A stretch of DNA of 64,000 bases from Bradyrhizobium sp. ORS 285 (lineage in GTDB: Bacteria; Pseudomonadota; Alphaproteobacteria; Rhizobiales; Xanthobacteraceae). Both the position numbers and the translations under genes were made by a program. This document shows, piece after piece, positions 3,054 through 45,515 of the stretch. Within the stretch, counting starts at the first letter, position 1, and every line of letters begins with the position of its first letter. The stretch is from the NCBI RefSeq assembly GCF_900176205.1, contig NZ_LT859959.1, positions 5,849,001 through 5,913,000 on the forward strand, given 5' to 3'. The notes beneath the pieces are model-generated. The model was not told where the DNA came from and did no database searches. It saw only the letters and a program-made list of their open reading frames with translations.

Positions 3054-3084
3054 ACGCTCAAACGAGAGACGACGAAGGAGGAGC

Positions 3085-5948: not shown

Positions 5949-5990
5949 GCCTGGCGATCGTGAACTAACAGCCGGGCCGCATCCGCGGTC

Positions 5991-6125: not shown

Positions 6126-6137
6126 GAAGAGAGACCT

Positions 6138-6233: not shown

Positions 6234-6255
6234 GAGTTGAGGGAACGGAGCCAGC

Positions 6256-7794: not shown

Positions 7795-7841
7795 GGAGGA
7801 GCTCGCTCACCCCGCCATGATTGTTGCGTCGCGCAGACCCA

Positions 7842-7955: not shown

Positions 7956-8006
7956 GTATGCTGAGGCGGCGAGCCTAGACAACAAAGACCCGGGAGGAAG
8001 AGCCAG

Positions 8007-8801
8007 ATGCCCAGCTTCAGCCGCTTCGCCGCGATGGCCATAGCAGCCCTCCTCTTCTCCACTGGCCCTTCCCGCGCCGACGACTCCATCCCTAACGTCC
8101 CGCGCGAGCTTCTCGAAGACATCGCGACCGGCAGCCGCGTGCTCGCCGATCTCGGCGTGGTCGACGCGTTTGGCCATGTCAGCGCGCGTCACCCGACGAA
8201 TCCGAAGCACTTCCTGATGGCTCGTTCCGTCGCGCCGGCGCAGGTCACGGCCGCCGACATCATGGAGTTCGACGAGAACGGCGAGCCGGTCGATGCCAGG
8301 AATCGCGCCGTCTTCCTCGAGCGCTTCATCCATGCCGAGGTCTACAAGGCCCGTCCCGACGTCAATGCCGTGGTGCATACGCATTCGCCGGGCGTGGTGC
8401 CGTTCAGCGTCAGCCGCACGCCGTTGAAACCGCTCTATCACAACGCCGCCTTCCTCGGTGAGGGCGCGCCCGTGTGGGACATCGGCAAGGAGTTCGGCGC
8501 CACCGACATGCTGGTGCGCAACAACGCGATCGGCAAGTCGCTCGCGGCCGCGCTCGGCGACAAGGCCGTCGTGCTGATGCGCGGCCATGGCGACGTCACG
8601 GTCGGACCCGCGGTACAGGCCGCCGTGTTCCGCGCCTACTACACCGACGTCAATGCGCGGCTGCAGGCGCAGGCCATCGGCCTTGGCTCGGACGTCACCT
8701 ATCTCAGCGCGGAGGAAGCCGCGAAGGCCGACGGCGTCAACATGGTGATCATGGATCGCGCCTGGGCGCTGTGGAAACAGAAGGTGCAGCCGGGGAAATA
8801 G
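8007..8801 (+). CDS. Exported class II aldolase/adducin-family protein
   Basis: A 264-residue protein with a Sec-type signal peptide (about 1-24, cleavage after SRA), then a class II aldolase fold. Zinc ligands are visible: the HTHS pair in NAVVHTHSPG and a third histidine in MRGHGDVTVG. The glutamate/GHVSARHP region near residue 55 matches the family. Most relatives (fuculose- and ribulose-phosphate aldolases) are cytoplasmic and use phosphorylated sugars, so a periplasmic copy implies another substrate. GGGAGGAAG lies about 8 bases before the ATG. The converging gluconolactonase-like neighbour may also act in the periplasm. Reaction unknown. Confidence 0.85.
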   Translation: MPSFSRFAAMAIAALLFSTGPSRADDSIPNVPRELLEDIATGSRVLADLGVVDAFGHVSARHPTNPKHFLMARSVAPAQVTAADIMEFDENGEPVDARNRAVFLERFIHAEVYKARPDVNAVVHTHSPGVVPFSVSRTPLKPLYHNAAFLGEGAPVWDIGKEFGATDMLVRNNAIGKSLAAALGDKAVVLMRGHGDVTVGPAVQAAVFRAYYTDVNARLQAQAIGLGSDVTYLSAEEAAKADGVNMVIMDRAWALWKQKVQPGK

Positions 8802-8897
8802 TCGAGAGCGATGACGCCGCAGGCCAGACGACATCCGATCGATCCGGGGCAGCCCGACAGAGCTCGCCCCGGACTTGTTCGCGATGTGGGTCCAGTC

Positions 8898-9986
8898 CTA
8901 CACCGCGCCTTCCGTCTCGACATACAGCGCGTACAGCGAATGCGACGCCGCCATGTAGAGCCGGTTGTTCTTCGGCCCGCCGAATGTCAGGTTGGCGCAC
9001 CGCTCCGGCAGCCGAATGAAGCCGATCGGCTTGCCTTGCGGGTTGAACACCATCACGCCGTCGAGGTCCTCCGACTTGGCCTTGAGCGGAAAAACCTTGT
9101 GGCCGTTGACCTCGACCGGCTCGGACGCCAGCGCGCCGTTCGAGCCCCAGCCGCACCAGAGATTGCCGTCGCGATCGACGCGGAAGCCGTCGAGCGAGCC
9201 CTGGTCGGCCGCATCGATCAGCTTCACCTTGTTGCCCACAGTGCCGTCGGCATTGACGTCGTAGCTCCAGATGCTGCGGTTCGGCGTGCCCTTCCACTCC
9301 ACGACATAGAGCTTCTTCTCGTCCGGCGAGAACGCGAGCCCGTTGGGATTGACGAGATCGGTGATCACAGCCGCCAGCTTGCCGTCGGTGCCGATCCGGA
9401 ACACGTTGGTGTTGGCCTGCTCGGACTTGGCCTTGAAGCCCTCCCAATTGCCGTTGATGCCGAACAGCGGATCGGTGAACCAGACCGTGTCATCGGACTT
9501 CACGACGATGTCGTTCGGCGCATTCAGCCGCTTGCCCTCGAAGCTGTCGGCGAGCACGGTGACGGTGCCGTTCTTCTCGGTGCGGGTGATACGGCGCGTC
9601 ACCGAATGCTCGCAGCTCACCAGCCGCCCCTGACGATCACGGGCGTTGCCGTTGGCGTAGTTGGCCGGGCTGCGGAAGACGGTGAAGCTGCCGTCCTTCT
9701 CGCTGTACTTCATGATCCGGTTGTTCGGGATATCACTGAGCAGCAGGTAGCCTTCATCCGGAAAGTAGGCCGGCCCCTCCGCCCAGCGCATGCCGCTGGC
9801 GACCTGCTCGACGGTCGAGCTGTACAGCCGGTACTTGGCGAAGCTCGGATCGAGGATCTCGATCGCGGGATCGGGATAGCGCTGGTTGGGCTTGAAGGCG
9901 AAGGATTGCGCTCTCGCCGGACCGGAGATCGCAAGCGCCGCTCCGCTCAGCGCGGCCGACAGAATGCCGCGACGCGACAATGTCAT
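8898..9986 (-). CDS. Tat-exported SMP-30/gluconolactonase-like beta-propeller protein
   Basis: A 362-residue protein with an N-terminal twin-arginine signal (LSRRGILSAALSG, cleaved after ARA near residue 27), followed by a six-bladed propeller of the SMP-30/gluconolactonase/LRE type. Motifs are RWAEGPAYFPDEGYLLLSDIPNNRI, LNAPNDIVV, VWFTDP and NGLAFSPDEKKLYV, which carry the metal-binding Glu, Asn and Asp positions. It probably hydrolyses a lactone in the periplasm; the exact sugar lactone is unknown. The start at 9986 has GGAGGAAAC directly upstream; an in-frame extension to 10172 has no ribosome site and would bury the signal peptide. Confidence 0.88.
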   Translation of the reverse strand: MTLSRRGILSAALSGAALAISGPARAQSFAFKPNQRYPDPAIEILDPSFAKYRLYSSTVEQVASGMRWAEGPAYFPDEGYLLLSDIPNNRIMKYSEKDGSFTVFRSPANYANGNARDRQGRLVSCEHSVTRRITRTEKNGTVTVLADSFEGKRLNAPNDIVVKSDDTVWFTDPLFGINGNWEGFKAKSEQANTNVFRIGTDGKLAAVITDLVNPNGLAFSPDEKKLYVVEWKGTPNRSIWSYDVNADGTVGNKVKLIDAADQGSLDGFRVDRDGNLWCGWGSNGALASEPVEVNGHKVFPLKAKSEDLDGVMVFNPQGKPIGFIRLPERCANLTFGGPKNNRLYMAASHSLYALYVETEGAV

Positions 9987-29561: not shown

Positions 29562-30593
29562 TCAGGCCTTGAACTCCTTGTTCCAGAAGTCGAGCGTGCG
29601 CTGCGAGCGTCCGGCGGCATAGGCGTAGTCCGGCTTCAGCAGCCGCGCGCGCTCGGCCTCGGTGAGGCTGACCTGCTTGGCGAGATCCTCCGGCAGCGGC
29701 GCGTCGGTGACGGTCGGGACGTAGCCCATCTTGTCGGCGAAGCCGCCTTGCGCCTTGGCGTCGAGCATCGCGTCGAGATAGGCGAAGCCGCCGGCCTTGT
29801 TCTTGGCGTTCTTCGGCACCGACGCCTGGAACACGATCGCCGGCGTACCTTCCTTCGGCACGACATGGGCGAGCGGAATGCCGGACTTCTTCCACATGAA
29901 GCCGCGGGCGAGCCACATCGTGGTGATCCAGACCTCCTCCGACTTCAGCGCCGCCGCCAAGGCCTCGTTCGACGGATAGATCTTCACGTCGAGCGAGCGC
30001 CATTCCATCAGCTTCTTCTCGGCCGGATCGAGATTGCTGACGCCGCCGCCGCCGGCGAGCGCCGCGGCCAGCGTGTTGTTGGGATAGAGAATGTCGGCGA
30101 GGCCGATCTTGCCGCGCCATTTCGGATCCCAGAGATCGGCGAAGGATTGCGGCGGCGTCTTCACCTGGTTGGTGTTGTAGAGGATGACCTGCGCCGAATA
30201 GATGTGCGGGATCGCGATCTCGCTTCTGAGCTCCGGGAACACCTTGTCGAGCCGCTTCACCTGCGCCGCGTCGATCTTCTCGAACACGTCGGACTGCGAG
30301 ACGATGTAGGCGTCGTTGTCGGACAGGCAGGAGACGTCCATCGAGCCGCGGCGGCTCTGCCGCTCGGCGAGCAGCTTGGTCTTGCGCGGATCGGCATTGG
30401 CGACGTCCTGCACGATCTCAAACCCCTTCGGCGTCATGATCGGCTTGTCGATGATGTCGGAGAGCAGCTGGCCGTAGTCGCCGCCCCAGGTGCCGACCAC
30501 GACCTGCCCGCCCTCGGCGCGGGCCGTCGGCATGCCGGAGGCCAGCGCGGCCATGCCGGCGCTGGCGGAGAGAAAGTGACGTCGCGAAATCAT
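29562..30593 (-). CDS. ABC transporter substrate-binding protein, Tat-exported
   Basis: A 343-residue periplasmic binding protein with a twin-arginine leader (ISRRHFLSASAG, cleaved near ARA at about 26). The mature segment begins VVVGTWGGDYGQLL, typical of polyamine/iron-like family 1 binding proteins (WDPKWRGKIGLADILYPNNTLAAAL; YLDAMLDAKAQGGF). It belongs to the six-gene operon with the amidohydrolase and CobW. Use of the Tat route suggests folding before export; the ligand is unknown. Confidence 0.88.
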   Translation of the reverse strand: MISRRHFLSASAGMAALASGMPTARAEGGQVVVGTWGGDYGQLLSDIIDKPIMTPKGFEIVQDVANADPRKTKLLAERQSRRGSMDVSCLSDNDAYIVSQSDVFEKIDAAQVKRLDKVFPELRSEIAIPHIYSAQVILYNTNQVKTPPQSFADLWDPKWRGKIGLADILYPNNTLAAALAGGGGVSNLDPAEKKLMEWRSLDVKIYPSNEALAAALKSEEVWITTMWLARGFMWKKSGIPLAHVVPKEGTPAIVFQASVPKNAKNKAGGFAYLDAMLDAKAQGGFADKMGYVPTVTDAPLPEDLAKQVSLTEAERARLLKPDYAYAAGRSQRTLDFWNKEFKA

Positions 30594-30623
30594 GGGAGAA
30601 CCTCTCGCTTGGGATGAACGCTT

Positions 30624-31688
30624 CTACTTGGATGTTTGCGGCACGAGACGCGGGACCTTGCGGTCCCATTGCAGCGACACGGCATCATTGGGCTTGAGCG
30701 CGGCCAACGGCTCGCCGGCATCGGGCGTCGGCCTCACGGCGACCAGCGTCTCGTCGCCGAGCGCCACCACATATTCGGTCTGCGCGCCCATATAGGTGAT
30801 CGCCTGCACGCGGCCGCGCACCTCGCCCGAGTCGCCGGGGACGATGCCGATCCGCTCCGGGCGCAGCGCGAAGGCGTCGGCATCATCGCGCTCGCCCGCG
30901 ATGACATCGACCGGAAGCAGCAGGCCGCCGCTGGTACGGAACTCCCCGTCATTCGCTCGCCGGCCGCCCAGGATGTTGCAGCGGCCGACGAAGTCGGCGA
31001 CGAACGCATCGACAGGCGAATCATAGAGTTCTTGCGGCGTGCCGATCTGGCGCACGCGGCCGCCCTCCATGACGACGAGGCGGTCGGCCATGGTCAGCGC
31101 CTCCTCGCGGTCATGCGTCACCATCAAGGTCGTCAGGCCGAGCCGTTGCTGCAGCGCACGGATCTCCAGCCGCACTTCGGCGCGCAGCTTGGCGTCGAGA
31201 TTGGACAAGGGCTCGTCGAGCAGGAAGATGCGCGGATTGATCACCAGCGCGCGCGCCAGCGCGACGCGCTGCTGCTGGCCGCCCGACAATTGCCGCGGCA
31301 GCCGGTCGGCGAGATGCGACAACCGCACCAGCTTCAGCGCCTCGTCGATCTTCGTCTTGCGCTCGGCCGCGTTGAGGCCGCGCATCTCCAGGCCGAAGCC
31401 GACATTGTCGGCCGCGCTCATATGCGGAAACAGCGCGTACGACTGGAACACCATGCCGGTCGATCGCTTGTACGCCGGCAGTTGCGTGACGTCCTCGCGA
31501 TCGAACAGCACGCGGCCGCTGGTCGGCGGCAGGAAGCCCGCCACCATGCGCAAGGTCGTCGTCTTGCCACAGCCGGACGGACCGAGCAGCGCAACCAGCT
31601 CGCCCTGGTTGACCGAAAGATCGAGGCCCTCGACGCCGATCGACGTGCCGAAGCGCTTGGTGAGCTTCTCCAGAATGAGCTGCGCCAT
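30624..31688 (-). CDS. ABC transporter ATP-binding protein
   Basis: A 354-residue ATPase. Walker A is GPSGCGKTTTLRM, the Q-loop is GMVFQSYALFPHMS, the signature is LSGGQQQRVALARAL and Walker B is FLLDEPLSNLDAKL, with a C-terminal TOBE region. The ATG overlaps the upstream permease stop as TGATG; a GTG one codon earlier is also possible. It energises the two permeases of this operon and is a close paralogue of the PotA-like ATPase at 23588-24643. Confidence 0.93.
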   Translation of the reverse strand: MAQLILEKLTKRFGTSIGVEGLDLSVNQGELVALLGPSGCGKTTTLRMVAGFLPPTSGRVLFDREDVTQLPAYKRSTGMVFQSYALFPHMSAADNVGFGLEMRGLNAAERKTKIDEALKLVRLSHLADRLPRQLSGGQQQRVALARALVINPRIFLLDEPLSNLDAKLRAEVRLEIRALQQRLGLTTLMVTHDREEALTMADRLVVMEGGRVRQIGTPQELYDSPVDAFVADFVGRCNILGGRRANDGEFRTSGGLLLPVDVIAGERDDADAFALRPERIGIVPGDSGEVRGRVQAITYMGAQTEYVVALGDETLVAVRPTPDAGEPLAALKPNDAVSLQWDRKVPRLVPQTSK

Positions 31689-32512
31689 CACACCACCCGC
31701 GACAGTTTGACGAAGCGGTCGGTGATCACCATCAGCAGCCCGACCAGCGTGATCTGCACGGTGGCGACGGCGGCGAGCGTCGGATCGATGCGGAATTCGA
31801 GATAGTTCAGCATGGCCACAGGGAGCGTGATCCGTCCGGGGCCGACCAGCAGCATCGACAGATCGAGGTTTTCAAAACTCTGGATGAAGGAGAACATCGC
31901 GGCGGCGACGATCCCCGAGCGCATCATCGGCAGGGTGATGCGGCGGAACACCGTGAACGGGCTGGCGCCGAGATTGGCGGCCGCCTCCTCGGCGGCGCGG
32001 TCGAGGCCTTGCAGGCTGGCGACGACGAGGCGCACCGTCCACGGAATGGCCAACAGCGTATGCGCGGCGACGAGTCCCTCCGTGGTGGCCTTGATGTCGC
32101 GGTCGAGCAGATCCTCGGCCAGCACGTAGAACATATAGAGCCCGGAGCCGGCGACCACGCCGGGCACCGCGAGCGGCGCCAGCAGGAACGACGACAGCGC
32201 CTGCCGGCCGCGGAATTCGCCGCGCACGATCGCGAGCGCCGCGGCAGTGCCGAGCGGCACGCCGATCGCGGTCGCGAGCAGCGCCACCTGGAAACTGGTG
32301 CCGAGGCCACGCAGGAATTCCGGCTTGCTCAGCGCGTTCGCGTACCATTTCAGCGACAGCCCCGACGGCGGGAAGCTGACGATCTCCTGCGCGAAGAAGC
32401 TGGTCATCACGATCATGACGACCGGCGCGAAGATGATGGCGTAAGCGACGACGATCAGTGTCCGCACTGCGAATTGGCCGATAGACAGTTGTCCCGTAAA
32501 ACGGAACAGCAT
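31688..32512 (-). CDS. ABC transporter permease (PotC-like), first gene of the operon
   Basis: A 274-residue membrane permease. The first membrane segment is LIVVAYAIIFAPVVMIVMTSF and the EAA loop is EEAAANLGASPFTVFRRITLP. ATG at 32512 with GAGG eight bases upstream; the frame extends far upstream, but only in low-complexity non-family sequence. It leads the operon permease-ATPase-binding protein-permease-amidohydrolase-CobW and is divergent from the amino-acid binding-protein gene across a 434-base control region. Confidence 0.9.
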   Translation of the reverse strand: MLFRFTGQLSIGQFAVRTLIVVAYAIIFAPVVMIVMTSFFAQEIVSFPPSGLSLKWYANALSKPEFLRGLGTSFQVALLATAIGVPLGTAAALAIVRGEFRGRQALSSFLLAPLAVPGVVAGSGLYMFYVLAEDLLDRDIKATTEGLVAAHTLLAIPWTVRLVVASLQGLDRAAEEAAANLGASPFTVFRRITLPMMRSGIVAAAMFSFIQSFENLDLSMLLVGPGRITLPVAMLNYLEFRIDPTLAAVATVQITLVGLLMVITDRFVKLSRVV

Positions 32513-32946
32513 TGCAGACACCTCAACAAACAAAAGGGCAGGTTGCGCGGCGGCATCGTAGTCGGCGGCTCCGCTGCCGCCAAGCCTGCGGTCCGAGTTA
32601 TCGCAATGCACATGTGCATGGACTGACGTCGTGCGGTGCCGCGATCCTGACGCGCAAATGGCCCGGCACTCCATCTGCGCGCTAATAGCACCCCGCCATT
32701 TCCGATCTTCAGCACTCGACGGCTGACCGGCCGTCCAGCCGGCCGGCGCCGCGCTCCATCGCAGCGGCGCGGTTTTGGGCAAAGGCTGCCCAATCCTTGC
32801 ACCGGCGCGATGCAAGATTTTGTGCGCCCCCGGACAAGTCATCCGCGCGGGCGCGCACCTAAGCTTGGTCCTGAGCTTGGACCGGGGCGACGGCACCCAT
32901 GCACCGCCGGACCAGCGCGACATCATCGTTCGAAGGAGCTGGCAAC
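32513..32946. promoter_or_regulatory. 434-base divergent control region with two dyads
   Basis: There is no gene here. Two symmetric sites stand out. ATGCACATGTGCAT at 32606-32619 is a perfect 14 bp palindrome. TTGGGCA, five bases, TGCCCAA at 32775-32793 has perfect 7 bp arms. The first is about 95 bases upstream of the leftward operon, the second about 155 bases upstream of the rightward binding-protein gene. They are candidate operators for regulators not encoded nearby. Confidence 0.45.
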
Positions 32947-33837
32947 ATGCAGACAAGGCTATTCACCGGAGCGCGACGCGCGTGGCTTGCCGCGTTCGGC
33001 GCCATCATCGCGGTGGGGCTTCTCGCCCCCATCGACGCGCAGGCGGCGACGCCGGCGGGCTGCGCGGCGCTGAAGGAGAAATATCCGGACTGGAAGGGCA
33101 AGACGCTCGTCAACGCCATCAATCCGCACACCCCGGGCTATGAGTCGATCGACCCGAAGGATCCAAGCAAATATGTCGGCTTCGACATCGATCTCGGCGA
33201 GGCGATCGGCGACTGCCTCGGCTTCAAGCTGACGTATAAGGCCGTGACGTTCGCCGCGCTGCTGACGACGCTCTCAAGCGGCCAGGCCGACATCGTCATC
33301 TCCGACATCTATGCCACCAAGGAGCGCGCCAAGGCCGCCGACTTCATCACCTATTCCAAGGTGTTCGACGGCGTGCTGGTCGCCAAGGGCAACCCGAAGG
33401 GCATCAACGGCATCAATCTGTCGCTGTGCGGCGCGGCCGCGGCCGAGAACACCGGCTATGTCGAGGTGCCGCTGATCCAGGATCTCGCGCCGAAATGCAA
33501 GGAAGCCGGCAAGCCCGAGCCGACCGTGCAGCTCTATGACAACAACGCCAACTGCATCCAGGCGATCCTCGCCGGCCGCGCCGACACCTATATCAACGAC
33601 GTCAACACGGTCGACCAGGCGGTGAAGGCCTATCCGGACAAGCTGGAAAAGGCCATCGCCGTGACCATCCCCTATTCGGTGGGCATCGCCGTGCCGAAGG
33701 ACAAGCCCAAGTTCCGCGACGCCGTGCTGGCCGCCCTGATCGAGGTGCAGAAGGAAGGCATCCACCAGGAGCTCTTGAAGAAGTGGCAGCTCGATCCGGC
33801 CAACTTCAAGGAGCCGGATATCCTGACGGCGGACTAA
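32947..33837 (+). CDS. Amino-acid ABC transporter substrate-binding protein (family 3)
   Basis: A 296-residue periplasmic binding protein. The signal peptide covers about 1-34 (WLAAFGAIIAVGLLAPIDAQA). The mature protein has the family 3 signature YVGFDIDLGEAIGDCLG and the SGQADIVISDIYATKERAKAADF segment. It contains an unusual number of cysteines for the family (for example CAALKE, DCLGF, LCGAA, KCKEA, NCIQA), suggesting disulfides. GAAGGAG lies about ten bases before the ATG. It probably feeds the fused permease-ATPase encoded 340 bases downstream. A polar amino acid or derivative is the likely ligand. Confidence 0.9.
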   Translation: MQTRLFTGARRAWLAAFGAIIAVGLLAPIDAQAATPAGCAALKEKYPDWKGKTLVNAINPHTPGYESIDPKDPSKYVGFDIDLGEAIGDCLGFKLTYKAVTFAALLTTLSSGQADIVISDIYATKERAKAADFITYSKVFDGVLVAKGNPKGINGINLSLCGAAAAENTGYVEVPLIQDLAPKCKEAGKPEPTVQLYDNNANCIQAILAGRADTYINDVNTVDQAVKAYPDKLEKAIAVTIPYSVGIAVPKDKPKFRDAVLAALIEVQKEGIHQELLKKWQLDPANFKEPDILTAD

Positions 33838-34176
33838 TAGCTCGCAGTTTTGAAGCTGAAGTTTTGGCCACGCGGGCAGTGCGCTCCCCTCCCCCTTGCG
33901 GGGAGGGGTCGGGGGTGGGGGTCCACACGAAAAGTCTTTCCTGGGTACCCCCCTCCCTAGCCCTCCCCCACAAGGGGGGAGGGAGCGAACCGGTTCATTG
34001 GCGACATATGCGTGAACCACACACGTAGCTAACGATCTCAGCACCGGCGCCGTACGACGCGACTTCGTAGGGTGGGCAAAGCGAAGCGTGCCCACCGTCT
34101 TTCTTCCGCAGCACCGCGGTGGGCACGGCGCGTCGCGCCTTTGCCCACCCTACGTCCTCAGCCAGGCCGCCTGCTC
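33838..34176. repeat. Gene-free gap with two palindromic repeats
   Basis: 33886-33992 holds the CTCCCCTCCCCC...GGGGAGGG element and 34066-34154 holds copy 4 of the GTAGGGTGGGCAAAG element. Both lie between the binding-protein gene and its presumed transporter. Nothing else is recognisable. The second repeat ends 22 bases before the transporter start, as in the garD case. Confidence 0.65.
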
Positions 34177-35805
34177 ATGTCCCTCTTCCTGCACTATCTC
34201 AGCATGCCGTATCTCCTGCAGGGCATCGAGCTGACCCTGCAGGTCACCGCGCTCGGCCTGGTCGGCGGACTGATCCTTGGCCTGATCCTCGCCGCGATGC
34301 AGCTCAGCCGGTTCTGGCCGCTGGCTGTGATCGCGCGCGGCTACACCGTGATCTTTCGCGGCACGCCGCTGATCCTGCAGATGGTGTTCGCCTACGACGC
34401 CCTGCCGCATATCGGCATCAAGCTGCCGGCGGTGCTGGCCGCCGGCCTTGCGCTGGCCTGCAACGAGGCGCCGTTCATCGCCGAGATGCTGCGCTCCGGC
34501 GTGCTCGGCATCGATCGCGGCCAGCTGCTCGCCGGCCAGGCGCTCGGCATGACACCGTCCGTGCTGATGCGCCGGATCATCGCGCCGCAGGCGATCCGCA
34601 CGATGATCCCCGCCTTCGGCAACGAGGCGGTGAGCGCGCTGAAGAACTCCTCGCTCGCCTCGGTCATCGCCGTGCAGGAGCTGACCCTGCGCTCGACGCA
34701 GCTGGCGTCCTCGACCTTCGATTTCTTCTCGATCTTCTTTGCTTCTGGCCTGCTCTATCTGGTGCTGACCGGGGCCATCAGCGTCATCCAACTCGCCCTG
34801 GAGTGGCTGCTCGATCTCGACCGCACGGCGAAGCAGCGCAAGCTGGCGGATTACTTGCCGTGGCGCCGTGTCGATCTCGCAACCAAGCTGGAGCTGGCGG
34901 CGAAGACCTCCCCCGCCATCGAGGCCGCCCCACCCGAACCCGCCGAATTGAAAGAGACACCGCCGCTCGCCTTGTCGATCGAAGACCGTGCCCGACGCGC
35001 CGCCACGATTGCTCGCAACAACGTCGCTGTCGAGGTCAAGGAGCTCCGCAAGGCCTATCACGGCAACAAGGTGCTCGACGGTCTCGATCTCACCGTGCGC
35101 ATCGGCGAGGTGATCGCGCTACTCGGGCCGTCAGGCTCCGGCAAGAGCACCCTGCTCCGCTGCATCAATCATCTGGAGAACTGGGACTCTGGTGAGATCC
35201 GTGTCGGCGGCCGCAAGCTCGGCTTCGACGACAAGGGGCGCAAGCTGTCGCCGCGCGCCATCGCCAATGAGCGCGCCAATGTCGGCGTCGGCATGGTGTT
35301 TCAGCAGTTCAATCTGTTCGCGCATCTCACGGCCAAGGAGAACATCGCGGGTCCGCTCCGGTGGGTCCATGGCCTCGGCCGTATCGAGGCCGAGCGTCGC
35401 GCGGTCGAGCTGCTGGAGCGCGTCGGGCTGTCGCATCGCGCCGATGCGCTGCCGCGGCATCTCTCCGGCGGGCAGCAGCAACGCGTCGCCATTGCGCGTG
35501 CGCTGGCGCCGAACCCGAGCGTGCTGCTGCTGGACGAGCCGACCTCGGCGCTCGATCCCGAGTTGGTCAACGAGGTGCTGGAGGTGATCCGCCGCCTCGC
35601 GATCGACGACGGGCTGACCATGATCATCTCGACGCATCAGATCCGCTTCGCCGACGAGGTCGCCGACCGCGTTGCCTTCCTCAATGGCGGCGTGATCCTG
35701 GAACAGGGCCCCGCACACGAGGTGCTGACCAACCCGCGCCACCCGCTGACCGCGCGCTTCCTCTCGGTGATGGAGGCCGAACGGCCGAAGGACGCGGTCG
35801 CATGA
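34177..35805 (+). CDS. Fused amino-acid ABC transporter permease and ATP-binding protein
   Basis: A single 542-residue chain. Residues 1-225 are a HisM/GlnP-type permease with several membrane segments and the loop GQALGMTPSVLMRRIIAPQAIR. A linker of about 70 residues follows, then an ATPase of the GlnQ/HisP class with Walker A GPSGSGKS (317-324), Q-loop GMVFQQFNLFAHLT, signature LSGGQQQRVAIARAL and Walker B LLLDEPTSALDPEL. The two are normally separate proteins. Dimerisation would give a complete transporter core. ATG at 34177 chosen; upstream in-frame sequence lies in a repeat. The partner binding protein is at 32947-33837. Confidence 0.92.
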   Translation: MSLFLHYLSMPYLLQGIELTLQVTALGLVGGLILGLILAAMQLSRFWPLAVIARGYTVIFRGTPLILQMVFAYDALPHIGIKLPAVLAAGLALACNEAPFIAEMLRSGVLGIDRGQLLAGQALGMTPSVLMRRIIAPQAIRTMIPAFGNEAVSALKNSSLASVIAVQELTLRSTQLASSTFDFFSIFFASGLLYLVLTGAISVIQLALEWLLDLDRTAKQRKLADYLPWRRVDLATKLELAAKTSPAIEAAPPEPAELKETPPLALSIEDRARRAATIARNNVAVEVKELRKAYHGNKVLDGLDLTVRIGEVIALLGPSGSGKSTLLRCINHLENWDSGEIRVGGRKLGFDDKGRKLSPRAIANERANVGVGMVFQQFNLFAHLTAKENIAGPLRWVHGLGRIEAERRAVELLERVGLSHRADALPRHLSGGQQQRVAIARALAPNPSVLLLDEPTSALDPELVNEVLEVIRRLAIDDGLTMIISTHQIRFADEVADRVAFLNGGVILEQGPAHEVLTNPRHPLTARFLSVMEAERPKDAVA

Positions 35806-36035: not shown

Positions 36036-37277
36036 ATGAAGCACCATCTGCTGCCGGTGTCCAACAAGACCGTCCACTGGGGCTATTTCTCCAAGGTGGT
36101 GACACCCGCGCTCACCTTGCGCTCCGGCGACCGCGCCACGATCGAGACGCTGACGCATCACGCCAATGACGACTATGAGCGGATGATCAAGGACGATCCG
36201 GGCGCCGAGAGCGTGTTCAAATGGACGAAGGAACATAAGGCCGTGGCGCGGCGCGGTTCGGGGCCGACCGAAGGGCCCTTCATCCGCGGTTCCGGCGAAG
36301 GCATCGGCGTGCATCTGCTCACCGGTCCGGTCGCGATCGACGGCGCAGAGCCCGGCGACGTGCTGGAGGTACGCATCCTCGACATCCGGCCGCGGCCGAG
36401 CCAATGCGGCTGCCATGCCGGCAAATGCTTCGGCTCCAATGCCGCGGCCAATTGGGGCTTTCACTATCACGATCTCATTGAGGAGCCGAAGCCGCGCGAG
36501 GTCGTGACCATCTTCGAACTCGATACCGCAGGCGAGCCGTTCGCCAAGGCGGTCTACAATTACGTCTGGACGCCGCAAACCGATCCCGACGGCATCGTGC
36601 ATCCGACCATCGACTATCCCGGCGTGCCGGTCGACCACACCACGATCAAGAAGCGCGAGAACATCCTGCCCGGCATCAAGGTGCCGGCCCGGCTGCATTT
36701 CGGCACGATGGGGCTGGCGCCGTCGGAAGCCGACTACGTGTCCTCGATTCCGCCGAGCTACACTGGCGGCAACATCGATGATTGGCGCATCGGCAAGGGC
36801 TCGCGGATGTATTATCCGGTCGCGGTGCCGGGCGCCTATTTCTCGGTCGGCGATCCCCACGCGGCGCAGGGCGACAGCGAGCTCGGCGGCACCGCGATCG
36901 AGACCTCGCTGACCGGCGATTTCGAGTTCATCCTGCACAAGAAGAGCGATCTCGCCGGCACCTCGCTCGAAGGCCTCACGCATCCGCTGCTCGAGACCAG
37001 CGACGCCTGGTCGGTCTACGGCTTCACCTATCCGAACTATCTCGCCGAGCTCGGCGCCAACGCCCAGACCGAGATCGCCAACCACTCCAGCCTCGACCGC
37101 GCCATGCGCGACGCCTTCCGCAAACTGCGGCGCTTCCTGATGACGGTGCACCATCTCAGCGAGGACGAGGCGATCTCGCTGATGTCCGTCGGCGCGGATT
37201 TCGGCGTGACGCAAGTGGTCGATGCGAATTGGGGCGTGCACGGCACGATCCGGAAGAATGTGTTCCGGTGTGATTGA
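36036..37277 (+). CDS. Acetamidase/formamidase family protein
   Basis: A 413-residue FmdA/AmdA-type amidase that hydrolyses short aliphatic amides to ammonia and the acid. Family landmarks are KTVHWGYFSK near the start, GDVLEVRILDIRPRP, WTPQTDPDGIVHPTIDYPGVPVD (in two parts), SIPPSYTGGNIDDWRIGKG and SVGDPHAAQGDSELGGTAIE. Length equals bacterial formamidases. No signal peptide. AAGAGG about eight bases before the ATG supports the start. It lies after an amino-acid transporter and before a second copy fused to an AraC regulator, with which it shares most landmarks. The exact amide is unknown. Confidence 0.93.
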   Translation: MKHHLLPVSNKTVHWGYFSKVVTPALTLRSGDRATIETLTHHANDDYERMIKDDPGAESVFKWTKEHKAVARRGSGPTEGPFIRGSGEGIGVHLLTGPVAIDGAEPGDVLEVRILDIRPRPSQCGCHAGKCFGSNAAANWGFHYHDLIEEPKPREVVTIFELDTAGEPFAKAVYNYVWTPQTDPDGIVHPTIDYPGVPVDHTTIKKRENILPGIKVPARLHFGTMGLAPSEADYVSSIPPSYTGGNIDDWRIGKGSRMYYPVAVPGAYFSVGDPHAAQGDSELGGTAIETSLTGDFEFILHKKSDLAGTSLEGLTHPLLETSDAWSVYGFTYPNYLAELGANAQTEIANHSSLDRAMRDAFRKLRRFLMTVHHLSEDEAISLMSVGADFGVTQVVDANWGVHGTIRKNVFRCD

Positions 37278-37578
37278 GTCCGTCGATGCTGGCTCAAGCT
37301 CCCTCGCCGAAGGCGGTCTGCTCCCTCCCCCCTTGTGGGGGAGGGTTGGGGAGGGGGGTACCCCAGGCGACACTGCCGCCGGGGACCCCCACCCCTAACC
37401 CCTCCCCGCCTAGCGAAGCTCCGCTTCGCGCGGGGGGAGGGGAACAGACCGCGCAAGTGGCGACAGGGTCGATCACCAAAGGACCACGGGAAGAGCACTG
37501 AGCACCAACGGCACACGACCTACAGTGAAACTCATCTGGCACGGGGGTTGCTTCGAAATCCCGGACCCGGGGCGTGCC
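37278..37578. other. Gap holding a GC-rich repeat and the sigma-54 promoter
   Basis: 37319-37444 is a CTCCCTCCCCCCTTGTGGGG / GGGGGAGGGG repeat of the family at 5991 and elsewhere. The remaining 130 bases carry the sigma-54 promoter at 37537-37553. No gene is seen. Confidence 0.65.
37537..37553 (+). promoter_or_regulatory. Sigma-54 (RpoN) promoter
   Basis: TGGCACGGGGGTTGCTT matches the consensus TGGCACG-N4-TTGCW without a mismatch. The invariant GG (37538-37539) and GC (37550-37551) are exactly ten bases apart. Transcription would begin near 37563, giving a leader of about 16 bases before the ATG at 37579. Sigma-54 usually means nitrogen or stress control through an activator such as NtrC, which fits an ammonia-releasing amidase. 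No enhancer site was identified with confidence. Confidence 0.8.
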
Positions 37579-39912
37579 ATGAGTTTCCGTCCGTTCACCA
37601 GCGAATCCTATGCGCAGGGCGAGCGCCCCGAGGCGTGGCGCGATGTGCTGAATTCGGTCGGGCTGCAGCCTGCCGCAAAATCGCCGTTCGACGATGGGCA
37701 CGCGACCGCCTCGAATCGCAGCGCGCCGGGCGTTGCGCTGTCGCGGCTGTCGGCGGGCGCGCAGGCCATCGCTGCGGTTCCACAGGTCCAGGAGGACCTG
37801 CCCATCGCGCTGCTCGCGATCGAGGATGGCGCCGTGCTCCGCTGCGGCGACGCGCACCGCATCATCCCGTCCGGCCATCTCATCCTGCTGCCGCGCACAG
37901 GCGATTGGAGCCTTGCCTTCCAGCGCGATCTGCGCGCGATCGTGCTGTCGGTCACGTCAGCCGCCCTCCACGGCCGCATCAGCGGCAAGCTGAAATTCGC
38001 CAAGCCCCAGGTGATCGCGCCGAGCGGGCTCGCCGACGTGGTCTGCCGCACCATGGAGGCGGCCGCGCGGACCCTCGATACCCTGAGCGACGCCGAATGG
38101 AGCACGGTCGCGCAGAGCCTGGTCGATCTGCTGCTGACGCTCGCACATCAGCAGGCGGTGCCGACCTCAGAGGCTGGCAGCAGCGCGACCCAGGCTGCGA
38201 TCCTGCACCGGATCTGCCAGGCGATCGAGCGCCAACTCGAAGACGCCGAGCTGACGCCCACGCGCGTCGCCCAGGCGGAAGGCATCTCTGAGCGCTATCT
38301 GCAAAAACTGTTCGAGAGCGCCGGCGACAACTACACGCACTACGTCAAGGAACGGCGGCTGCAGCGCGCCTGGGCCGATCTCTCCAATCCGGCCGAGGCG
38401 CATCGCTCGATCTCCGAGATCGCCTATCGCTACGGCTTTGCCGACTCGGCCCATTTCAGCCGCAGCTTCCGTGCCCGTTTCGGCCTGTCGCCGCGCGAGT
38501 TCCGGCAGCAGAAGGCCGAGCAGGCGGTGACCTCAGTGGCGCCACGCGGCCAGCGCGGCTGGCCGCAGGATGCGCTGGCGCAGCAGCGCGGCTGCCAGGC
38601 GCCGGCCTCACTGAAAAGCAGCACCGCCCTGCCCGCACCTGCCAACGACCGGGATGCGCAACAGCGGCATCACCATCTCGCGGTATCCGCCGAGCGCGTG
38701 CATTGGGGCTATTTCAGCCGCTCGCTGCCGCCGCAGATCGAGATCTCATCCGGCGACACGATCACCGTGGAGACGCTGACCCAGCATGCCTCCGATGATC
38801 CGGAGCTCATGATCGCGGGCGACGACGGCGCGCTCAGCGTGTTCGGCTGGAGCAAGGCTAAGAAGAACGTCGACCGTCGTGGCGCAGGTCCAATGGACGC
38901 CAGCGTGTTCGGCCGCGGCGCGGGCGAGGGGTTTGGCGTGCACATCTGCACCGGGCCGGTCGCGATCAAGGATGCGCAGCCCGGCGACGTGCTCGAAGTG
39001 CGCATCCTCGACATCGTGCCGCGGCCGAGCAGGAGCGCGAAGCATAGGGGACGCGTGTTCGGCTCCAGCGTCGCGGCGTGGTGGGGCTATCACTACAACG
39101 AGCTAATTGCTTCGCCGCAGCCGCGCGAAGCCGTGACCATCTACGAGATCTTCGCTGACACCCCCGAGCCGCATGCGCGTGCGCTGTACTCCTATCGCTG
39201 GGAGCCGCAGACCGACCCGGCCGGCGTGGTGCATGCGACCTACGACTATCCCGGCGTGCCCGTCGCGCCCGACAGCATCAAGCGCCGCCACGGCGTGCTC
39301 GACAACATCCGCATTCCGCTGCGGCCGCATTTCGGCGTCATCGCCGTCGCCCCGCGCGAGGTCGATTTCGTCGATTCGATTCCGCCGTCCTACTTCGGCG
39401 GCAATCTCGACAATTGGCGGCTCGGCAAGGGATCGACCGTGTATTTGCCGGTCGCGGTCCCCGGCGCGCTGCTCTCGGTTGGCGATCCCCATGCGACGCA
39501 AGGCGACGGCGAGCTCGGCGGCACCGCGATCGAATGCTCGATGACCGGCACGTTCCAGGTCATCCTCCACAAGAAGACGCAGCTCGCGGGCAAACCGTTT
39601 GCCGATCTCAGTTATCCCTTGATCGAAACCGAAACCGACTGGGTGCTGACCGGGTTCAGCCATCCGAACTATCTGGCCGAGTTCGGCGCGCAGGGCCAGA
39701 GCGAGGTCTACGCCAAATCCTCGCTCGACCTCGCGATGAAGGACGCCTTCCGCAAGATGCGCCGCTTCCTGATGCACATCAAAGGTCTCAGCGAGGACGA
39801 GGCGATCGCGCTGATGTCGGCCGCGGTGGATTTCGGCGTGACGCAAGTCGTCGACGGCAATTGGGGCGTGCACGCGATCCTGAGCAAGCGGCTGTTCGAG
39901 GATGCGGATTGA
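37579..39912 (+). CDS. AraC-family regulator fused to an acetamidase/formamidase domain
   Basis: A continuous 777-residue chain. Residues 1-190 resemble the FeaR-type AraC ligand-binding domain (FRPFTSESYAQGERPEAWRDV). Residues 208-311 are an AraC double helix-turn-helix (VAQAEGISERYLQKLF; ISEIAYRYGFADSAHFSRSF). A basic, Ala/Gln-rich linker runs to about 365, and 366-777 is a full formamidase domain (RVHWGYFSRS, SIPPSYFGGNLDNWRLGKG, SVGDPHATQGDGELGGTAIE). The enzyme part is a paralogue of the preceding gene product. Start 37579 is preferred over a GTG at 37525 because the sigma-54 promoter lies between them. Possible roles: an enzyme that senses its own substrate, or a regulator with a repurposed sensor domain. 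Confidence 0.9.
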   Translation: MSFRPFTSESYAQGERPEAWRDVLNSVGLQPAAKSPFDDGHATASNRSAPGVALSRLSAGAQAIAAVPQVQEDLPIALLAIEDGAVLRCGDAHRIIPSGHLILLPRTGDWSLAFQRDLRAIVLSVTSAALHGRISGKLKFAKPQVIAPSGLADVVCRTMEAAARTLDTLSDAEWSTVAQSLVDLLLTLAHQQAVPTSEAGSSATQAAILHRICQAIERQLEDAELTPTRVAQAEGISERYLQKLFESAGDNYTHYVKERRLQRAWADLSNPAEAHRSISEIAYRYGFADSAHFSRSFRARFGLSPREFRQQKAEQAVTSVAPRGQRGWPQDALAQQRGCQAPASLKSSTALPAPANDRDAQQRHHHLAVSAERVHWGYFSRSLPPQIEISSGDTITVETLTQHASDDPELMIAGDDGALSVFGWSKAKKNVDRRGAGPMDASVFGRGAGEGFGVHICTGPVAIKDAQPGDVLEVRILDIVPRPSRSAKHRGRVFGSSVAAWWGYHYNELIASPQPREAVTIYEIFADTPEPHARALYSYRWEPQTDPAGVVHATYDYPGVPVAPDSIKRRHGVLDNIRIPLRPHFGVIAVAPREVDFVDSIPPSYFGGNLDNWRLGKGSTVYLPVAVPGALLSVGDPHATQGDGELGGTAIECSMTGTFQVILHKKTQLAGKPFADLSYPLIETETDWVLTGFSHPNYLAEFGAQGQSEVYAKSSLDLAMKDAFRKMRRFLMHIKGLSEDEAIALMSAAVDFGVTQVVDGNWGVHAILSKRLFEDAD

Positions 39913-40072: not shown

Positions 40073-40456
40073 ATGCAGTTCCACATGATCGCCGGCGCGA
40101 CCAAGCCGGTGGCACCGTTCAGCCATGCCGTCGAGACCGACGGCTTCGTGTTCGTCACCGGCCAGATGCCGGACTCACCGGAGGCGAAGGGCGTGCTGCC
40201 GGAGGGGATCGTGGATCAGACGAAGGCGGTGATGCAGAACTTGAAGTACATCCTCCAAGGTCTCAACCTCGGCCTCGAACATATTGTGATGTCTCGGATT
40301 TACCTGACCGAGTTCAAGCGGGATTACGCGGCAATGAATGAAACCTATCGTTCATTCTTCCCGCCGGACCGGTTGCCGGCCCGCACCTGCGTTGGCGTCA
40401 CCGGCCTTGCCTATGACGCGCTGATCGAGATCGATCTGGTCTGCCGACGACCCTAG
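40073..40456 (+). CDS. RidA-family (YjgF/UK114) protein
   Basis: A 127-residue RidA-family protein. Landmarks are KPVAPFSHAVETDGFVFVTGQMP, QNLKYILQGLNLGLEHIV, and RTCVGVTGLAYDALIEID, with the arginine before TCVGV at the expected active-site position. Classical RidA deaminates enamine/imine intermediates formed by PLP enzymes; related subgroups act in degradation of nitrogenous ring compounds. GAAGGA about nine bases before the ATG at 40073; the longer frame reads through a repeat and is rejected. Its neighbours suggest help in clearing reactive intermediates of amide or amino-acid breakdown. Confidence 0.9.
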   Translation: MQFHMIAGATKPVAPFSHAVETDGFVFVTGQMPDSPEAKGVLPEGIVDQTKAVMQNLKYILQGLNLGLEHIVMSRIYLTEFKRDYAAMNETYRSFFPPDRLPARTCVGVTGLAYDALIEIDLVCRRP

Positions 40457-42505: not shown

Positions 42506-43330
42506 CTACTCCACCAACGCCTTCACCAGTCCGCTCTCTGCGTCCGCCAGCTCCTCGATCACATCGAAATGGTGCCGGTCCGGCGCCTCGACATAGGCCG
42601 TGGATGCACCGAGCCCCGTCCAGATATTCGCGAGCAGCTGGGCCTGGCGGCGGAATTCGTTGCGCTCGGCGCCGCCGACCCAGGCGGTCACCTCAACGCC
42701 GTCGACCGGCACCAGTAGCGCCGGGCTCTCGCGCAGCGCGGTGGCATCGTCGATATGCAACGTCTCATTCATCGCGGTCCGCTGCAGCGGACGCAAATCG
42801 TGCAGGCCAGAGATCGAGACCACGCTGCTGATGCGCTTCTGCCGTTCTGCCGACAACGGCGCGCCGCGGCAGATCATGCGGCTGACGAGATGGCCGCCGG
42901 CGGAATGGCCAGTGAGCGCGACAGGCCCGTCGACCTCGTCCATCGCCTTCGCAATGGCCTGCGCGACATCGACGCTGATCTCAGCGATGCTGACCTCAGG
43001 GCACAGTCGATACGAGGGCATCGCCACGGCAAAGCCGTGGGCGATCGGTCCCTGCGCCAGATGCGACCAGAAGCTCTTGTCGAGCCGCATCCAGTAGCCG
43101 CCATGCACGAACACGACGAGGCCCTTCGGCTTGCCTTCGGGCAGGAACAGATCCAGCCGCTGCCGCTCGTGCCCGCCATAGGCGATGTCGAGCTTTGCAC
43201 GCCCCTGCCCTGTGAGTTCAGCGCGATACGCTTCCGCCGGCGCGACCCATAGCCCGGGCCAGCGCTCGCCGCCGGGGATGTTCGGGCCGTTGGCATAGGC
43301 GTTGTCCCAGTCCTTGACGGCATACAGCAT
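42506..43330 (-). CDS. kynB: Arylformamidase (kynurenine formamidase), alpha/beta-hydrolase type
   Basis: A 274-residue alpha/beta hydrolase of the HSL-like HGG class: oxyanion motif VHGGYWM, nucleophile elbow TGHSAGGHL, and the acid/base pair near the C-terminus in VEAPDRHHFDVIEELAD. It follows tryptophan dioxygenase by 30 bases in an operon with kynureninase, so hydrolysis of N-formylkynurenine is the evident role. It is not the cyclase-fold KynB of many bacteria but the eukaryotic-like alpha/beta-hydrolase type, a non-homologous replacement; the symbol describes function. Cytoplasmic. Confidence 0.82.
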   Translation of the reverse strand: MLYAVKDWDNAYANGPNIPGGERWPGLWVAPAEAYRAELTGQGRAKLDIAYGGHERQRLDLFLPEGKPKGLVVFVHGGYWMRLDKSFWSHLAQGPIAHGFAVAMPSYRLCPEVSIAEISVDVAQAIAKAMDEVDGPVALTGHSAGGHLVSRMICRGAPLSAERQKRISSVVSISGLHDLRPLQRTAMNETLHIDDATALRESPALLVPVDGVEVTAWVGGAERNEFRRQAQLLANIWTGLGASTAYVEAPDRHHFDVIEELADAESGLVKALVE

Positions 43331-43360
43331 GAGTATCTCCTGATCGAATGAGCGCGCGGC

Positions 43361-44200
43361 TCAGAGCCCTGTGCGCAGCTTCCAGAGTTCGGGGAACAGC
43401 ACGATCTCCAGCATCTTGCGTAAATAGTTCACGCCCGAGGTGCCGCCGGTGCCGGTCTTGAAGCCGATGATGCGCTCCACCGTCGTGACGTGGTTGAAGC
43501 GCCAGCGGCGGAAATAGTCTTCGAAATCGACCAGCTTCTCGGCGAGCTCATACAGCTCCCAATGCCGCTGCGGATCGCGGTAGACGCTGGTCCAGGCCGC
43601 CGCGACCTCCGGGCTCTCGGTGCGGGTGCCGCGCCAGTCGCTGCGCTGGCCATCGGCGCCGATGAAGAAGCCGCGGCGCGCCAGCAGCCGCAGCGCTTCG
43701 TCATACAGGCTGGGCTTGGCAAGGATCGCCTCGAGCTCGGCCGTCAGTTCGGGATGATGCGCATGCGGACGCAGCATCGCGAGATTGCGGTTGCCGAGCA
43801 GGAATTCGATGGAGCGATACTGAAACGACTGGAAGCCGGAGGACTCGCCGAGCTTGTCACGAAACAGCGTGTATTCGCTGGGCGTCATCGTGCGCAGCAC
43901 GTCCCAGGCGCCGTTGAGCTGCTCGAAGATGCGCGACACCCGCGCCAGCATCTTGAACGCCGGCTGCACGTCATCCCGCGCGATCGCCGCCATCGCCGCC
44001 TTGATCTCGTGGATCGCGAGCTTCATCCACAATTCGGAGGTCTGGTGCTGGATGATGAACAGCAGCTCGTCATGGGCCGAGGACAGCGGCGCCTGCGCAT
44101 CGAGCAGGCGATCCAGCATCAGATAGTCGCCATAGGACATCCGTCCCTTGAAGTTCATCCGCGCGCCTTCGGTGGCGGGATCGTAGGGACCGTTGCTCAC
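43361..44200 (-). CDS. kynA: Tryptophan 2,3-dioxygenase
   Basis: A 279-residue heme dioxygenase that opens the indole ring of L-tryptophan to N-formylkynurenine. Landmarks are [32 protein letters not shown] (distal site), [17 protein letters not shown] and [19 protein letters not shown] with the proximal heme histidine, then [13 protein letters not shown]. Length matches bacterial TDO. The start is taken as GTG at 44200, which overlaps the kynU stop as GTGA, so the two are coupled; the in-frame ATG MNFKGRM lies 14 codons in. Confidence 0.95.
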
Positions 44201-45390
44201 GTCACGAGCTCCTTCTGGCGATATTCGGGCTTGTCCCAAAGCTTGTTGTCGAGGACCTCCGCGAGGATGTCGACGGCGCCGCGCACCTCGGCCTCGCCGA
44301 TGTAGAGTGGCGTGAAGCCGAAGCGCAGCGCGTCCGGCGCGCGGAAGTCGCCGATGACGCCGCGGGCGATCAGCGCGCGCATGATCGCATAGCCGTCGGG
44401 ATGACGGAACGACACCTGGCTGCCGCGCCGCGTCGCATCGCGCGGCGACGCCAGCGTCAGCGACGGGCAGCGCTTCTCGACTTCAGCGATGAACAGCTCG
44501 GAGAGCGCCATCGAGGCCTTGCGCACATCCTGCATCGACACGCCGTCCCAGGCGTCCAGCGCCGCATCGAGGGCTGCAAGCGCGATGATCGGCGGCGTGC
44601 CGATGCGCATGCGCTCGATGCCGCCGCCGGGGCGATAGTCGAGATCGAAGGCGAACGGCGCCTCGTGACCCATCCAGCCCGACAGCGCGGGAGGTGCGAT
44701 ATCGGCATGACGTGGCGCGACATAGATGAAGGCCGGCGCGCCGGGGCCACCGTTGAGATATTTGTAGGTGCAGCCGACCGCGAAATCCGCGTCGGCACCG
44801 GCGAGATCGACCGGCACGGCGCCCGCGGAATGCGCGAGATCCCACACCGTGAGCGCGCCAACGACATGGGCCTTCTTCGTCAATGCCGCCATGTCGTGCA
44901 TGCGGCCGGTGCGGTAGTCCACCTCGGTCAGCATCATCACGGCGACATCGCCGTCGATCGCGGCCTCGACCTGCTCGGGCTCCACCACCTTCAGCGCTGC
45001 GCGATCGCCGAGCATGCGGATCAGGCCTTGCGCCATGTAGAGATCGGACGGAAAGTTGCCGCTGTCCGACAGGATCACGCGGCGACCCGGATTGAGCGAC
45101 AGCGCCGCGGCGAGCGCCTGATAGACCTTGATCGACAGCGTGTCGCCCATCACGACCGTGCCGGGCGCTGCGCCGATCAGCCGCGCGATGCGGTCGCCGA
45201 CGCGGCGCGGCTGCACCATCCAGCCGGCGCTGTTCCAGCCGCGGATCAGCTCCTGGCCCCATTCCGCCTCGAGCATCCGGGCCACGCGGGCGGGCACCGC
45301 CGCGGGCAGCGCGCCGAGCGAATTGCCGTCGAGATAGATGACTCCGTCAGGAATCCTGAAAAGCGATCGGGTGTGAGAAAAATCCGCCAT
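44197..45390 (-). CDS. kynU: Kynureninase
   Basis: A 397-residue PLP enzyme that cleaves L-kynurenine to anthranilate and alanine. Landmarks are [43 protein letters not shown] and [14 protein letters not shown] with the PLP lysine. It starts at 45390 (an upstream frame to 45510 has no family sequence) and is the first gene of kynU-kynA-kynB. A perfect dyad 23 bases upstream is a likely control site. Anthranilate from here has no degrading genes in the window. Confidence 0.95.
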
Positions 45391-45412
45391 GCTGCCTTGC
45401 TCTGTTCGCCAT

Positions 45413-45431
45413 CCCGAATGCATGATTCGGG
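45413..45431. promoter_or_regulatory. Candidate operator of the kyn operon
   Basis: CCCGAAT-GCATG-ATTCGGG: perfect 7 bp arms around five bases, 23 bases upstream of the kynU ATG and 85 bases before the divergent DUF4864 gene. In other bacteria the kyn operon is controlled by an Lrp-type KynR; no such gene is in the window, so the binder is unknown. Confidence 0.45.
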
Positions 45432-45515
45432 CCGCAAGAGACCAGATCGACCGGCGCCCCATTGTCCGCCGCCTGATCTTGGCTCTGTCATGACAGCCGT
45501 CACGGAGCAAGTGCG

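Follow-up and report, generated by a model that had tools for sequence, protein, structure and literature searches.

Some bacterial regulators join a helix-turn-helix (HTH) domain to an enzyme-type domain, among them MocR/GabR, which combine a GntR HTH with a pyridoxal phosphate (PLP) aminotransferase-like domain, and Ada, in which an AraC-type HTH is coupled to catalysis by a suicide methyltransferase, not a turnover enzyme. In the GATR family the corresponding domain is glutamine-amidotransferase-1-like, N-terminal and not catalytic, and the DNA-binding parts of PutA and BirA are of the ribbon-helix-helix (RHH) and winged-helix types. GATRs such as GbdR and CdhR are described as having an AraC-family DNA-binding half and a domain of enzyme ancestry, and as controlling quaternary amine catabolism (PMC5806209). 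The trigger enzymes PutA and BirA are described as pathway enzymes that are also DNA-binding regulators of their own operons and act as repressors (PMC6978683). Here we analyzed a stretch of 64,000 nucleotides from Bradyrhizobium sp. ORS 285 (the window; contig NZ_LT859959.1, positions 5,849,001 to 5,913,000), in which positions 37579..39912 on the + strand encode an AraC-family regulator fused to an FmdA_AmdA amidase. The protein resembles the GATRs in joining an AraC-family DNA-binding half to a domain of enzyme ancestry, but here this domain is FmdA_AmdA, lies at the C terminus, has its family residues complete and is added to a complete AraC protein. As an enzyme-regulator protein it is alike in kind to PutA and BirA and differs from them in folds and chemistry; with MocR/GabR and Ada it shares the fusion of an HTH regulator to an enzyme-type domain.

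Free FmdA_AmdA amidases (3b9t from Methylobacillus flagellatus, 2ii1, 2f4l, 3tkk, 5ubu and 2wkn) have the same fold and motifs but stand alone; 3b9t is named a twin-arginine translocation (Tat) signal protein, whereas the fusion must stay cytoplasmic to bind DNA. An acetamidase gene of a haloarchaeon is described as required for growth on acetamide (PMC5052560). No description of an AraC::FmdA fusion was found in the open literature, an earlier report in subscription papers being possible, and many of the 120 listed full-length relatives already carry the JGI name 'acetamidase/formamidase/AraC-like DNA-binding protein'. The kind of protein (a trigger enzyme, or a regulator with an enzyme-type domain) is known, and the AraC::FmdA combination appears to be new as a described system. 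To our knowledge, few regulators are equipped with a working enzyme that acts on their probable inducer, and the textbook examples either act as repressors or contain domains that no longer catalyse. We give slightly better than an even chance to the reading that the fusion is a local, single-operon trigger enzyme, that is, an activator whose amidase half recognizes and probably hydrolyses the inducing amide.

The fusion gene and its domains

The frame at 37579..39912 (+) is open from ATG to stop and encodes 777 aa, comprising an AraC regulator, a linker and an amidase. An alternative GTG start at 37525 would give 795 aa; because Met fills the column of the ATG in 37 of the 50 rows of the fusion alignment (A2), the ATG at 37579 seems the likelier start. 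Four Pfam matches, all exceeding their gathering scores, were obtained on the fusion (795-aa numbering): AraC_binding_2 (54-205), HTH_18 (249-329; 73.2 bits against a cut-off of 33.6), HTH_AraC (295-328; 40.6 against 26.6) and FmdA_AmdA (PF03069; 472-777; 100.6 against 27). No DJ-1/GATase-1-like domain was detected on the fusion in the Pfam scan. In the 777-aa numbering used from here on, the AraC_binding_2 domain, of the N-terminal ligand/dimerisation type, covers residues 36-187 (37684..38139), the double HTH DNA-binding domain (HTH_18) residues 231-311 (38269..38511), the linker residues 312-364 (38512..38670) and the FmdA_AmdA amidase domain residues 365-770 (38671..39888), all on the + strand. 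The HTH half gives fold matches to the AraC-type DNA-binding domains of CuxR, Rns and ToxT, and the amidase half, which is 60-62% identical to 3b9t, matches its fold in the structure model with a template modeling (TM) score of 0.91-0.92. The NCBIfam equivalog for FeaR (NF007243) scored 121.5 bits over residues 36-329 of the 795-aa form, below its cut-off of 199, and by this measure the AraC half is a relative of FeaR, not FeaR itself; the FmdA equivalog (NF045496) scored 58.6 bits on the fusion and 66 on the free amidase encoded upstream, both far below the cut-off of 500. DNA-binding and enzyme domains, both intact in sequence, are thus present in one polypeptide, which is the architecture of a trigger enzyme.

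The original prediction, made from the window alone, had described an uninterrupted 777-residue frame that joins a complete AraC regulator to a complete amidase domain, and this description holds, with no stop or frameshift in the linker. The chance that a sequencing, assembly or frame artefact joined two genes is negligible. Nothing in the window speaks for it, although elsewhere the frame is not whole in four of the best 80 of 274 relatives on named GTDB contigs: loci L103 and L145 stop at a contig end, and L108 and L127 are interrupted. Both interrupted frames (L108, 6001-8307; L127, 5950-8340) come from metagenome-assembled genomes and reflect either a real break or an assembly error. The genome of ORS 285 is one contig of 7,797,098 bases, so that a draft-assembly join is unlikely, and an artefact is refuted by recurrence of the fusion in other genomes: the same domain order, which the prediction had proposed to look for, was found in 26 of 60 genomes of the genus and in all of those best 80 loci.

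Distribution and gene arrangements

In the genus sample, searched with the 795-residue query at a threshold of E 1e-60, 26 of the 60 genomes (the source genome counted) have the fusion, 11 have an amidase match only and 23 have no match. One of the 26 (G016) reaches only residue 733 of the query, and G049, counted among the 11, is in fact a fusion truncated where its contig ends, its remainder being 96% identical to the fused amidase of L020. In wider samples, which overlap, include the genome of the window each time and were counted from match tables, the fusion was counted in 10 of 297 genomes at order level (five families), in 4 of 385 at class level and in 8 of 398 at phylum level. The best 80 of the 274 relatives all match the fusion over nearly its full length (the shortest, L103, to residue 715), which is not a frequency, since the best matches were kept. 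They span Alpha-, Beta- and Gammaproteobacteria, with hosts in Bradyrhizobium, Tardiphaga, Rhodopseudomonas, Ancylobacter, Roseibium/Labrenzia, Martelella, Rhizobium, Thioclava, Paraburkholderia, Caballeronia, Nevskia, Pseudoxanthomonas and others; the closest named relatives among the matches listed are Bradyrhizobium.

In the window, the fusion is preceded on the same strand by genes for a family-3 solute-binding protein (32947..33837, within a longer open reading frame (ORF) at 32899-33837, the start being chosen by eye), an ATP-binding cassette (ABC) importer of amino acid type with permease and ATPase in one polypeptide (34180..35805, start codon approximate) and a free-standing amidase of 413 aa (36036..37277) that is 57% identical to the fused amidase. 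It is followed, again on the + strand, by a gene for a RidA-family protein (40073..40456), the last of the conserved core; the importer and RidA genes are syntenic. The permease-ATPase polypeptide is itself a joined protein, conserved along with the operon. Gene order was compared by an automatic gene picture in 95 fusion rows, representing 94 distinct loci (L039 and L122 duplicate each other). In 66 rows, one strand carries the order binding protein, ABC importer, free amidase, fusion, with RidA coming next in 40. The window adds another case: the script mis-picked its importer gene, which the ORF list and Pfam make clear. The free amidase lies directly before the fusion on the same strand in 80 of the 95 rows, and several of the others are contigs that end early. 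Within the genus, 24 of the 26 fusion genomes have a free amidase (57-60% identity) directly upstream on the same strand, and in G004 and G010 a free amidase, 61-62% identical, is divergent from the fusion.

Other surroundings were also observed. A second fusion type, 42-47% identical to that of the window, stands in divergent orientation to a free amidase whose N-terminus is longer in L020, L021, L036 and L038; in L037 it lies beside a tripartite ATP-independent periplasmic (TRAP) importer and a gamma-glutamyltransferase gene, and L035 has genes of the same clusters. Genome G343 has two second-type fusions, L035 and L036, whose surroundings differ; one of the two is divergent from a free amidase. 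The window also has a gamma-glutamyltransferase gene, whose membership in the operon was rejected, as its cluster occurs in three loci only (the window, L067 and L119); a relative does adjoin the TRAP-type locus L037, clustering with L035. In Burkholderiales, the operon is divergent in L134, L138 and L142, and the fusion gene is turned round in L131 and L133, where (5423-9649 and 1854-6032, respectively) it occupies the opposite strand between the free-amidase and RidA genes, as would result from an inversion inside the operon. In the gammaproteobacterial loci L128 and L146, the fusion is accompanied by genes for TauD dioxygenases, a short-chain dehydrogenase, a TonB receptor and an isochorismatase-type hydrolase; the hydrolase was identified by a scan in L128 and by its cluster in L146. 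Some Paraburkholderia and Caballeronia loci (L136, L137, L140 and L143) have after the fusion a polysaccharide-deacetylase-like gene, with a Pfam score just under the cut-off and scanned in L136 only, which may hint at a cyclic amide or imide step.

A putative operator upstream of the operon

The best evidence that the fusion is likely to regulate these genes is a putative operator, CAA-N6-GTGCG-N6-GACAAG, at 32813..32838 (+), before the binding-protein gene. It is conserved in 71 aligned upstream rows, which stand for 70 loci at most, as the window is included twice, L039 and L122 represent a single record and many rows are close relatives. A weakly conserved, -10-like element, TAAGCT, follows 21 bp downstream in the same alignment (32860..32865, +), and because the site abuts the expected -35, activation of the operon is the inferred effect. 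The putative operator is the sole exact match to the site in the 7.8-Mb genome. A wide regulon was rejected on this count; with 2 mismatches, there were 50 matches in all against 32 for a reversed control, a weak excess.

A site matrix was trained on 46 rows of the Bradyrhizobium group (the window twice) and tried on 45 held-out fusion rows. Its top match fell within about 450 bases upstream of a binding-protein, amidase or AraC start in 35 of the 45, against 5.8 expected from the length covered (34 of 44 with L039 and L122 counted once; the binomial figure for this excess ignores kinship and is not a probability). The putative operator accompanies the fusion into its other surroundings, where it lies between the fusion and the divergent amidase or TRAP genes. 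Among 11 controls, loci that have a free amidase but lack the fusion, the best matrix score was 3.6; L049 had been taken out of the controls, as it is truncated at a contig end and shares 96% identity with the fused amidase of L020.

Family residues and constraint in the amidase half

The original prediction had suggested aligning the amidase half with characterized formamidases, and against solved family members the shared family residues do persist. Residues common to the distant solved members (G607, G608, N609 and D611; G635, D636 and H638; G642, D643 and E645; E652) are invariant in 50 of 50 A2 fusions and match the family motifs GGNxD, GDxH and GDxE followed by a Glu (E652). Q641, shared only in part by the distant solved members, is likewise invariant in all 50, and residue 644 varies between Gly (41 fusions) and Ser (nine), giving the motif QGDxE. 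The segment GDPHATQGDGE (residues 635-645; 39481..39513, +) thus holds seven invariant residues (G635, D636, H638, Q641, G642, D643 and E645), and the same positions are invariant across 25 fused and 21 free domains. No published catalytic residues for the FmdA_AmdA family were found in the open literature searched; by our own reading of family conservation, GGNxD, GDxH, GDxE and E652 would be the catalytic residues. The comparison of the 25 fused with the 21 free domains, from which two outgroups and three distant free amidases of Burkholderiales were excluded, yields 86 positions that are invariant in both sets and a single discriminating position, L623, which is Tyr in 20 of the 21 free domains.

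Constraint was estimated in 79 rows in which fusion and free amidase share a strand and are no more than 800 bases apart (with L039 and L122 duplicating a single record). Compared with the window, the N-domain averages 54.9% identity, the HTH 73.2%, the fused amidase 82.1% and the free amidase 84.2%. In four pairs, the ratio of nonsynonymous to synonymous substitution rates (dN/dS) is 0.10-0.18 for the fused amidase, 0.02-0.14 for the free amidase, 0.08-0.19 for the HTH and 0.18-0.38 for the N-domain, the fastest evolving part. By these figures, the amidase half is under enzyme-like constraint, slightly below that of its free neighbor.

These data bear on the possibility that the amidase half is a catalytically silent sensor, its intact pocket binding the amide with slow or no hydrolysis while the free amidase catalyses, much as the aminotransferase-like half of GabR is reportedly a catalytically silent sensor. 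A second enzyme would be redundant wherever a free amidase stands directly upstream on the same strand, as it does in most rows, and the fused domain is slightly less constrained than the free one. Set against this are the invariance of the recognized family residues, the single position separating fused from free domains, and five loci (L128, L141, L146, L035 and L037) in whose fetched stretch no free amidase of the FmdA_AmdA family was found. We consider such a sensor unlikely. The prediction had offered an amidase fold reused as a sensor as its second option; in the form of a degenerate fold, this is disfavored by the retained residues and the enzyme-like constraint, and only the intact-site form survives as the rival just described.

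The linker and its conserved motif

The linker had been described as about 55 residues long, basic and flexible-looking; it has 53 residues (312-364), is mildly basic (7 K/R against 4 D/E, by our own count) and is mostly disordered in the AlphaFold2 model, residues 319-360 having a predicted local distance difference test (pLDDT) score below 50 and the blocks over 321-360 mean values of 29-36. Its mean column identity is 0.41. Within this otherwise variable segment, RGWP (residues 326-329; 38554..38565, +) belongs to a motif, RG[W/L/R/V]P, present in 95 of 95 fusion rows (94 distinct loci), with W in 77, L in 10, R in seven and V in one. None of the three free AraC paralogues examined in this genome has the motif. 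Docking of the motif onto the amidase was considered and dropped, as the structure model gives it no support, and a role as an AT-hook was rejected as a mere likeness of RGRP, the form present in seven of the 95 rows.

A further alternative, which we find rather unlikely, is simple tethering, in which the AraC N-domain senses the effector and the amidase is attached for equal dosage, without communication between the halves. The retained AraC_binding_2 domain and the long, disordered and variable linker would suit it. So would the related AraC protein that is free-standing beside an amidase gene in L156, by which a regulator of this kind can exist alone. Protein P0128, of 310 aa and 68% identical to the AraC half, ends just after the HTH and is either a cut fusion or a separate gene. 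Against tethering, the fusion has been kept across three classes after a single origin, the RG[W/L/R/V]P motif is present in every row, and the N-domain is the fastest-evolving part, which would be odd for a conserved effector pocket.

Origin of the fusion and unfused relatives

In a tree of amidase domains (51 rows, thinned at 86% identity), 25 fused rows lie on one side of one branch (support 99/91; 100% of 200 bootstrap trees) and 24 free rows on the other. Because the fused domains form one clade, the fusion arose once; the outgroups have very long branches (about 5 and 8-10), which makes the root unsure, but the one-clade result is independent of the root. The upstream free amidase partner falls in its own supported clade (98/97) and hence is an old paralogue of the fused amidase. 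Local duplication, with the fused amidase copied from its neighbor, is ruled out by the separate supported clades, and the paralogy proposed in the original prediction therefore stands as relatedness, not as a recent copy. Sister to the fused clade in this tree (90/87; the branch is not starred) is a free amidase from L045, which belongs to an operon of binding protein, ABC importer and amidase without the fusion, with a GntR-type regulator gene upstream on the other strand.

Unfused orthologues of the AraC half were sought among 120 listed matches, of which 43 hold the RGxP motif and 30 hold the start of the amidase. Tails were read for 16 of the 120. Eleven tails with at least 50% identity break off or shift frame, at points directly behind the HTH, within the linker or near the beginning of the amidase; five with at most 38% identity belong to separate AraC relatives that stop shortly after the HTH and lack RGxP. 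With one of these separate relatives as the query, a search found it in 1 of 398 genomes (E 1e-60), at locus L156. There, a free AraC gene (34%) begins 7 bases after an FmdA_AmdA gene that is 39% identical to the amidase half, and Rieske, LigB and TauD genes and a TonB receptor lie beside the pair. Homologues are mostly fused and not always two genes, this being the one unfused related amidase-AraC pair found. A gene pair of the L156 type could be the source of the fusion, though its gene order reverses the domain order.

Proposed mechanism

If the fusion is a single-operon trigger enzyme, its AraC half would bind the putative operator, abutting the expected -35, before the operon of binding protein, importer, free amidase, fusion and RidA, and would activate the operon from there. 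The incoming amide would bind in the complete FmdA_AmdA half, occupancy or turnover of the amidase site would set regulator activity, and hydrolysis would remove the inducer, so that the switch resets itself. DNA binding, activation in place of repression, catalytic activity and the amidase site as the effector site are all inferred here from sequence. That the amidase half would see, and probably split, the imported amide is suggested by its intactness, a constraint above that of the AraC ligand domain and the importer beside it. As the importer is of the polar-amino-acid type, an amino-acid-like amide is the expected substrate, fitting it better than formamide would. Formamide or acetamide as inducer, by comparison, is doubtful, because the operon has a family-3 binding protein of the polar amino acid type, an ABC importer and RidA. 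The coupling of catalysis to gene control put forward in the original prediction remains the best reading, given the conserved domain order, the retained family residues and the conserved site before the operon.

Several observations weigh against this reading. One is that the AraC half retains an AraC_binding_2 domain of its own, and this domain could be the sensor. The fused amidase has a lower identity than the free one in 65 of the 79 rows and a higher dN/dS in all four pairs, and this slightly weaker constraint would fit partial relaxation. The AlphaFold2 model (mean pLDDT 79.8, predicted TM score (pTM) 0.70) gives no confidence on the relative placement of the halves. The matrix has its top match elsewhere in 10 of the 45 held-out rows (L038, L099, L103, L120, L126, L128, L141, L146, L158 and L159), of which L103 is a short contig without the upstream region and L120, L126 and L158 have their second-best match before the binding-protein gene. 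Several of the other 35 score low (down to 1.4), under the 95% point of 210 shuffles (5.9, maximum 12.7), and for these the argument rests on position. The -10-like TAAGCT is weak and was not listed by a consensus promoter scan.

A bolder version of the trigger-enzyme reading, which we put forward tentatively and think doubtful, is a self-extinguishing activator that would hydrolyse its own inducer while controlling the promoter. Its output would follow amide flux and not concentration, RGxP would be a coupling or extra DNA contact element, and the device would be widespread in Proteobacteria.

Other features of the window

A GC-rich interspersed repeat occurs in two copies inside the operon, at 37300-37445 in the gap between free amidase and fusion and at 33898-33992 in the gap between binding protein and importer; the 146-base stretch has 60 matches in the genome, itself counted. 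A second ABC importer is divergent from the operon (29562-32956, -; ORFs 29562-30593, 30624-31691 and 31688-32956) and appears, by eye only, to be of polyamine type. Kynurenine-pathway genes lie at 42506-45510 (-), including those for tryptophan 2,3-dioxygenase (43361-44239) and kynureninase (44197-45510); a hormone-sensitive-lipase-type alpha/beta hydrolase at 42506-43330 (-) could be the kynurenine formamidase, which is a guess. This pathway, whose dioxygenase and kynureninase genes lie 3-4 kb downstream on the other strand, was rejected as context for the fusion, as it does not recur among the looked-up clusters shared by more than two loci, not every cluster having been named.

Implications

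A widespread fusion that arose once, with a likely dedicated site and usually an adjoining free paralogue, would make the question of whether catalysis sets transcription addressable within a single protein and promoter. This subfamily of amidases also gains a probable regulon and transporter.

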